A stretch of DNA of 64,000 nt from Terriglobia bacterium (GTDB lineage: Bacteria; Acidobacteriota; Terriglobia; Acidiferrales; UBA7541). This document shows, one piece after another, positions 49,338-50,712 of the stretch; the stretch's first letter is position 1; each line of letters opens with the position of its first letter. The translations under genes were made by a program, and so were the position numbers. The DNA lies in contig JAIQEW010000008.1 of the NCBI GenBank assembly GCA_020073605.1, forward strand, positions 62,001 to 126,000, written 5' to 3'. Under the pieces are notes generated by a model. The model was not told the DNA's origin. It did no database searches and saw only the letters and a list, made by a program, of their open reading frames with translations.

Positions 49338-49378
49338 AGAAAAGAAGAGGGGGCCCCAGCTTGGGATCCAGGGCCCCC
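49338..49378 (-). terminator. Rho-independent terminator ending an orphan minus-strand transcript
   Basis: On the minus strand, GGGGGCCC and GGGCCCCC (49349-49356 paired with 49371-49378) form an 8-bp stem, followed by TCTTCTTTTCT, a good U-tract (49338-49348). The plus-strand side has no T-run. No protein gene ends just upstream on the minus strand, so it closes a non-coding transcript or a truA leader. Confidence 0.7.
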
Positions 49379-49660
49379 AAAGGCCGCGCTCCTTTGGTCC
49401 GGCCTAGGCGTGACCGAACCATGGGGTCATCCATCCTAGCTTCCCTCTCAGAGGCAGGTGGGAACGACCTGCGCCATCTTGTGAACGGGCCCCTTCCTCC
49501 CCATTCACTCAACAACGCCGATCGTGTAGGAACGCGACCCGCACTCTCCCTTATGCAAGTCGATTGCCCATCTCTTGTGCCGCTTGCTCCGCGGACGCTT
49601 CCATTTTTCAACAACTTGCAGCCTCCGAATCCTCCGCAGCCTGCTCTTCAGGTTCAAATC
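49338..49660 (-). ncRNA. Candidate structured RNA of unknown family
   Basis: No convincing protein is encoded between truA and the TlpA-like gene. On the minus strand a chain of helices precedes a strong terminator: GCAAGTTG/CGACTTGC (49612-49619 with 49555-49562) enclosing CCGC/GCGG (49591-49594 with 49580-49583); a nine-pair stem GTGAATGGG/CCCGTTCAC (49500-49508 with 49481-49489, one G-U); GCAGGT/ACCTGC (49467-49472 with 49454-49459); CTAGG/CCTAG (49435-49439 with 49404-49408) around TGACC/GGTCA (49425-49429 with 49411-49415); and CCAAAGG/CCTTTGG (49391-49397 with 49377-49383). The 5' end is uncertain. Motifs of tmRNA, RNase P RNA and SRP RNA were sought and not found. 6S RNA or a truA leader element are possible but unproven. 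Confidence 0.45.
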
Positions 49661-49803
49661 GGGAAGCAGTGTCCCGCAATGGCGCCGCTCCGAATCTGCC
49701 GTCCCGAAGCATCCTCTTCTCGTTTCCATCGTCTATATCTACGAGCCCCCTCATTGTGCGGCGCGCTCGTCTGCCGCATAATGGGTCAAGTGGCGCGCAA
49801 AGC

Positions 49804-50712
49804 ATGAAAAAACCCCTCCTTCTCGTCGTGGCGGCGCTCGCAGCGCTCTTGGTGCTGGTGGCGGCGCTGGCGACCCCGCGTTCGGGGCATGTCGCCGCAG
49901 CCACTCGCGTGTCGCTCCCTCACAATTCACCAGTTGCAGCTAAGGCCCCACAGGACGAGGCGTCGGACGACGACCCACCCGCCGTCATCCGCTTCGCGAG
50001 CAATCCGTCGCCTGTGCCGCCGTTCCTGGTCAGCGATTTGGACGACAACGTCATCTCGACGGCAAGCTGGCACGGCAAGGTCGTCTTGCTGAACTTCTGG
50101 GCCACGTGGTGCCCTCCCTGCCGCGAGGAGATCCCGATGCTCATCGAGCTCGAGGGGCGCTACAAGGAGCGCTTGCAGGTGATCGGTGTTTCAGAAGACG
50201 ACGCGCCGCCCGAGGAAGTACGCGCGTTCGCCCAGAACATGGGAATCAACTATCCCATCGTGATGGGCAACAATGAAATTTCGGCGGAATACGGCGGCGT
50301 CGAAGCTCTGCCGACTTCCTTTGTCGTGAACCCGGACGGCCGCATCGTCCAGAAGCACGTGGGCCTCTTCCCGATCGAGGTGTACGACCGCGAGATCCGC
50401 GCCCTGCTCGGCATGCCTATCAACGTGCCGATCGAAACGTTCGAGGACACCGGGCAAATCTTCCTGAAGAACGCCGCGCTCGCCACGTCGCTTCCCGGCG
50501 TCGAATTCCGCGGACTTACCGCGAAGCAGAAGCGCGCGGCGTTGAAGCGCATGAATTCCGAGAACTGCGCCTGCGGCTGCAAGATGACGATTGCGCAATG
50601 CCGCATCAACGATCCCTCATGCTCCACCAGCCAGAAGCTCGCAACGGAGATCGTGCACGAAATCCGTTCCCGCGGCCCCGCATCCCCCTCCGCTGCCACC
50701 GCCGCCCGATAG
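49804..50712 (+). CDS. TlpA-family thiol-disulfide protein with Cys-rich tail
   Basis: The 302-residue protein has a signal/anchor (about residues 3-24), a TlpA thioredoxin domain (about 62-200) with NFWATWCPPCREEIPML (CxxC) and ALPTSFVVNPDG, and a C-terminal extension of about 100 residues with a cysteine cluster ENCACGCKMTIAQCRINDPSC. That cluster suggests metal binding, and it is not part of the usual TlpA fold. ATG at 49804 was chosen because the longer upstream frame reads non-coding sequence, including the minus-strand RNA candidate. It is probably periplasmic and might handle copper or thiols. Confidence 0.86.
   Translation: MKKPLLLVVAALAALLVLVAALATPRSGHVAAATRVSLPHNSPVAAKAPQDEASDDDPPAVIRFASNPSPVPPFLVSDLDDNVISTASWHGKVVLLNFWATWCPPCREEIPMLIELEGRYKERLQVIGVSEDDAPPEEVRAFAQNMGINYPIVMGNNEISAEYGGVEALPTSFVVNPDGRIVQKHVGLFPIEVYDREIRALLGMPINVPIETFEDTGQIFLKNAALATSLPGVEFRGLTAKQKRAALKRMNSENCACGCKMTIAQCRINDPSCSTSQKLATEIVHEIRSRGPASPSAATAAR

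Follow-up and report, generated by a model that had tools for sequence, protein, structure and literature searches.

A conserved four-way-junction RNA of Acidiferrales with a predicted sigma-54 promoter

Comparison with homologous loci indicates that the gap before truA in the window (the whole 64,000-nucleotide stretch of DNA analysed) holds a real RNA gene of ∼205 nt, carried by the minus strand and having a sigma-54 promoter and a terminator of its own. The gene, its fold, its terminator, the sigma-54 motif and its changing neighbours were all shown by this comparison. The earlier note had proposed an orphan structured RNA on this strand ending in a terminator, a proposal now borne out by conservation across genera and by covariation. 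Its extent, given as 49338-49660, had to be revised: the predicted transcript runs from about 49543 to 49338, while positions 49544-49685 hold the promoter and enhancer region and lie outside the RNA.

The RNA gene and its fold

The 5′-end of the transcript was placed from the spacing of the sigma-54 element and the 3′-end was taken from the terminator. The features, from upstream to downstream, are as follows.

49672-49685, minus strand: palindromic element 1 of the upstream region, one half of an enhancer site resembling TTCCCGA-N-TCGGGAA
49653-49665, minus strand: upstream palindromic element 2, ∼20 bp from element 1
49555-49570, minus strand: sigma-54 −24/−12 promoter TGGGCAATCGACTTGC (GG-N10-GC), at a fixed place in homologues
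49338-49543, minus strand: predicted transcript, from +1 (about 49543) to the end of the U-rich tail
49529-49541, minus strand: 5′ strand of the closing helix P1
49464-49525, minus strand: long hairpin P2
49490-49499, minus strand: apical loop of P2, GAGGAAGGGG
49423-49463, minus strand: near-invariant 41-nt core (P3 plus J3/4), from the homologue alignment
49431-49461, minus strand: hairpin P3, CCACCUGCCUCUGAGAGGGAAGCUAGGAUGG
49421-49430, minus strand: conserved single strand J3/4, AUGACCCCAU, from the homologue alignment
49396-49420, minus strand: hairpin P4
49382-49392, minus strand: 3′ strand of P1, from single-sequence folds and the pairing analysis of the alignment
49349-49378, minus strand: intrinsic terminator stem-loop of 11 pairs, loop GAUCCCAAGC
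49338-49348, minus strand: U-rich tail UCUUCUUUUCU, 3′ of the terminator stem

The stretch has a predicted folding energy of −143.4 kcal/mol, against −124.8 kcal/mol in shuffled sequences (z = −3.5), and is more stable than all 100 of the 100 shuffles. A coding frame across the core was considered and rejected: its first AUG is absent from several homologues and, beyond the core, lengths differ by numbers not divisible by three, so the core frames are not coding.

The fold is a cruciform, in which the closing helix P1 is followed by the hairpins P2, P3 and P4 and then by the terminator, and the same cruciform was obtained from single-sequence folds of widely different homologues. This closed four-way junction replaces the six helices in series that had been described before. 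The nine-pair stem with a GAGGAAGGGG loop (the loop at 49490-49499) is present, as reported; the terminator stem and its U-rich tail are also there, although the stem has 11 pairs rather than 8. The sequence CCCARGC is kept in the terminator loop (49359-49368, minus strand) of 37 of the 47 homologues, which is unusual for a plain terminator.

Three of the helices covary. Both sides were changed in 9 of the 11 pairs of P1 (93.7% paired), in 16 of the 18 pairs of P2 and in 7 of the 9 pairs of P4, an arm that MAFFT aligned poorly between genera. As an example, most members of the window's genus have GGGUCGCGUUCC/GGAACGCGACC as P1, and another genus has GAGGUGCACGG/CCGUGCACCUC. Across the alignment, 88.9% of cells pair and 32 of 49 pairs show changes on both sides; double-sided compensatory cells numbered 270, against 97 in shuffled and 37–72 in slid controls, counts that do not represent independent events, the homologues being related by kinship. 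The covariation score (0.364) was twice that of the shuffled alignment (0.184) and more than four times that of the slid ones (≤0.086). P3 behaves differently: its 11 pairs (98.4% paired) show almost no variation, so its support comes from conservation and folding energy rather than covariation, and most homologues include it in their minimum-energy fold.

The apical loop of P2 is of an invariant GGAAGGGG type. A loop mimicking a ribosome site had been suggested; GGAGG is present in 18 of the 47 P2 loops, while the string found in all 47 is GGAMGGGG, which speaks against that suggestion. The GGA motifs of this loop and of the core, with AGGAUGGAUG and GAGGAAGG motifs present in the sequence, would also suit a sponge for CsrA of the CsrB/RsmZ kind, but CsrA was not found in the genome from which the window derives (93.6% complete), and we give this reading hardly any credence. 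Near-perfect conservation over 41 nt is not usual for CsrB/RsmZ sponges. A pseudoknot between the GGGG of the P2 loop and the CCCC of J3/4 was considered as well: some J3/4 changes keep pairing through G-U, while others break it. The two helices previously held to be mutually exclusive, AGGCCG/CGGCCT and CCAAAGG/CCTTTGG, do occur in the window but are conserved in only 1 and 2 of the 47 homologues, respectively; being nearly window-specific, these alternatives do not sustain the switch that had been built on them.

The sigma-54 promoter and its surroundings

The GG-N10-GC pattern is the signature of the −24/−12 elements recognized by sigma-54. All 47 homologues whose upstream sequence is intact have it 87–99 nt ahead of the core, while its background is 2.6% of random positions. 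The spacing of the element makes the first bases of P1 the predicted +1. Further upstream, ∼80–125 bp from the promoter, many homologues, though not every one, have two palindromes ∼20 bp apart. Such sites concentrate at two spacings from the −24 element, on its upstream side, with 69 observed against a mean of 21 and a maximum of 35 in 200 shuffles. The arrangement is one expected for an enhancer-binding protein, which makes the paired palindromes candidate binding sites. When the genome's own contigs were searched with exact and two-mismatch patterns, no further site combining the paired palindromes and the promoter was seen among the loci listed. A TlpA-like redoxin gene (49804-50712, plus strand) runs divergently and has a common intergenic region with the enhancer-like elements of the RNA, a neighbourship kept in part of the family.

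Sigma-54 itself is encoded (rpoN) in the window's own genome and in 22 of the 23 genomes tested, and it also occurs in genomes without the RNA. In one genome (G029, genus g11, 97% complete) the RNA is present and the sigma-54 DNA-binding domain was not found. In the genome of origin, rapZ, with both RapZ Pfam domains, lies directly after rpoN (L179, 574-2931; contig C2). Linkage of rpoN and rapZ is common in bacteria that lack GlmY.

Distribution and genomic neighbours

A DNA search of 101 relatives detected the element in most members of the window's family, and gave no credible match beyond that family; the matches reached 85% identity over 240 bases, with the 41-base core often 100% identical. 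A covariance model built from 47 homologues was then used on 399 genomes of the class, in which the RNA was found, mostly as a single copy, in 76 of the 89 genomes of the family. A diverged copy was present in one genome of a second Acidiferrales family, retaining GG-N10-GC, the loop GGAAGGGG, a P1 with complementary strands and a terminator. Run against 297 genomes from the whole phylum, the model gave no credible match; a 24-bit match in one genome (G414) has no core and appears to be due to chance. When named genomes were scanned with a pattern, the RNA was placed in Candidatus Acidiferrales and in group-2 acidobacterial metagenome-assembled genomes (MAGs; Acidobacteriota). Two contigs labelled Bacillota and Betaproteobacteria (L122 and L171) closely match Acidiferrales contigs and are probably mis-binned or mislabelled. 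A mobile or phage origin was discarded, there being no matches in viral contigs or in phage or plasmid collections.

Decayed copies without intact helices or terminator were also observed in other genomes of the family (L104, L105, L113 and L115), several of which are large. The decay or absence of copies in some large genomes indicates that the RNA is not essential everywhere, absence calls being affected by MAG incompleteness.

In the window the start codon of truA lies ∼75 nt downstream of the terminator, an arrangement that would suit a leader or attenuator of truA, as the earlier note had suggested. However, of 40 contexts only 5 have truA immediately 3′ of the RNA, and 2 others have it at a greater distance; a copper ATPase gene, in either orientation, occupied the 3′ side in many others, and different genes elsewhere. 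Since the neighbours change between genera, the RNA is an independent gene and not a truA leader. The alternative helices are not conserved among homologues either, and we regard this role as most improbable.

Proposed action and relation to known RNAs

We infer the expression of the RNA, its activator, its docking partner and its regulatory outcome from the comparison as follows. Bound to the paired palindromes, an enhancer-binding protein would activate sigma-54 RNA polymerase at the −24/−12 element; transcription would begin with the 5′ strand of P1, stopping at the terminator and yielding an RNA of ∼205 nt that would fold as the four-way junction P1-P2-P3-P4. The arms P1, P2 and P4 change in sequence yet keep their pairing, which suggests a scaffold role, while the P2 loop, P3 and J3/4 are nearly invariant even where base-paired, which suggests a sequence-specific docking face. 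The partner docked there would most likely be an RNA-binding protein, which the RNA may sequester or modulate while the sigma-54 signal is on. That the RNA is a free-standing, sigma-54-induced, trans-acting four-way junction whose invariant face docks a conserved partner is a proposal to which we give about even chances. More tentatively, it may represent an undescribed Acidiferrales class of sigma-54-induced regulator of the ribonucleoprotein type, working with a dedicated protein, be it RapZ or another RNA-binding protein.

It is equally conceivable that the strictly conserved stretches pair with target RNAs. A base-pairing sRNA induced by sigma-54, used in the manner of Qrr and dependent on Hfq or not, would seed conserved mRNAs through its conserved single strands, the candidates being J3/4 (AUGACCCCA), the P2 loop and the terminator loop (CCCAAGC). 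The independent gene with its terminator and the conserved loops agree with such a role, as do the matches to the Hfq family, present in 22 of the 23 genomes and over the cut-off in 13, but these matches are weak and divergent (∼33 bits in the genome of origin), and both strands of the P3 stem are conserved rather than single-stranded seeds alone. This role is possible though doubtful; the conservation of paired P3 positions points to a protein as the reader of this stem more than to simple seed pairing, and falls short of proof.

The RNA is of interest as a structured family that has good support, is missing from Rfam and comes from uncultured soil bacteria; a literature search retrieved no description of small RNAs for Candidatus Acidiferrales and no paper describing this RNA. 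The fixed sigma-54 promoter offers a direct handle on the inducing signal, and the near-invariant core a handle on the partner.

In agreement with the earlier note, in which no known RNA class was recognised, the window matched no family of Rfam 15 at gathering score and nothing convincingly at E ≤ 10, and only a neighbouring tRNA was matched at gathering when 20 homologous loci were searched. BjrC68 (RF02353) gave a weak match over the P4/terminator region (21.4 bits, against a gathering score of 39) that depends on the GC-rich terminator and not on the core. The proposal of a 6S-like RNA was dropped: the window did not match RF00013, and the genome's own 6S RNA lies on another contig (C12; 57.6 bits, over the cut-off). 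The two are structured and similar in length (the 6S model has 187 positions), but the RNA described here is a cruciform, i.e. a four-way junction with a terminator.

A parallel in control is GlmY of E. coli, a free-standing sRNA driven by sigma-54 that sequesters RapZ and has, like the RNA described here, a −24/−12 promoter, activated in its case by an enhancer-binding response regulator (PMC7073468). A decoy of this kind, binding RapZ and controlling its activity, would fit with rapZ adjoining rpoN downstream in the genome of origin. Against it, the GlmY/GlmZ models of Rfam gave no match in the window up to E = 10 and none among the homologues at gathering, the cruciform fold and invariant core are unlike GlmY, and nothing specific connects the RNA to RapZ here, which makes this role improbable. 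The CrcZ, CrcY and CrcX RNAs of Pseudomonas, which are RpoN-dependent and activated by the enhancer-binding protein CbrB (PMC8657755), are likewise comparable in control but not in sequence, and their host belongs to a different phylum; they sequester Hfq-Crc, and no Rfam match was found for the present RNA. Finally, OLE, GOLLD and ROOL are also strongly conserved structured RNAs found by comparison and with no function assigned; they are far larger than the ∼205-nt RNA (PMC12286853), which has no sequence match to them and is narrower in its distribution.
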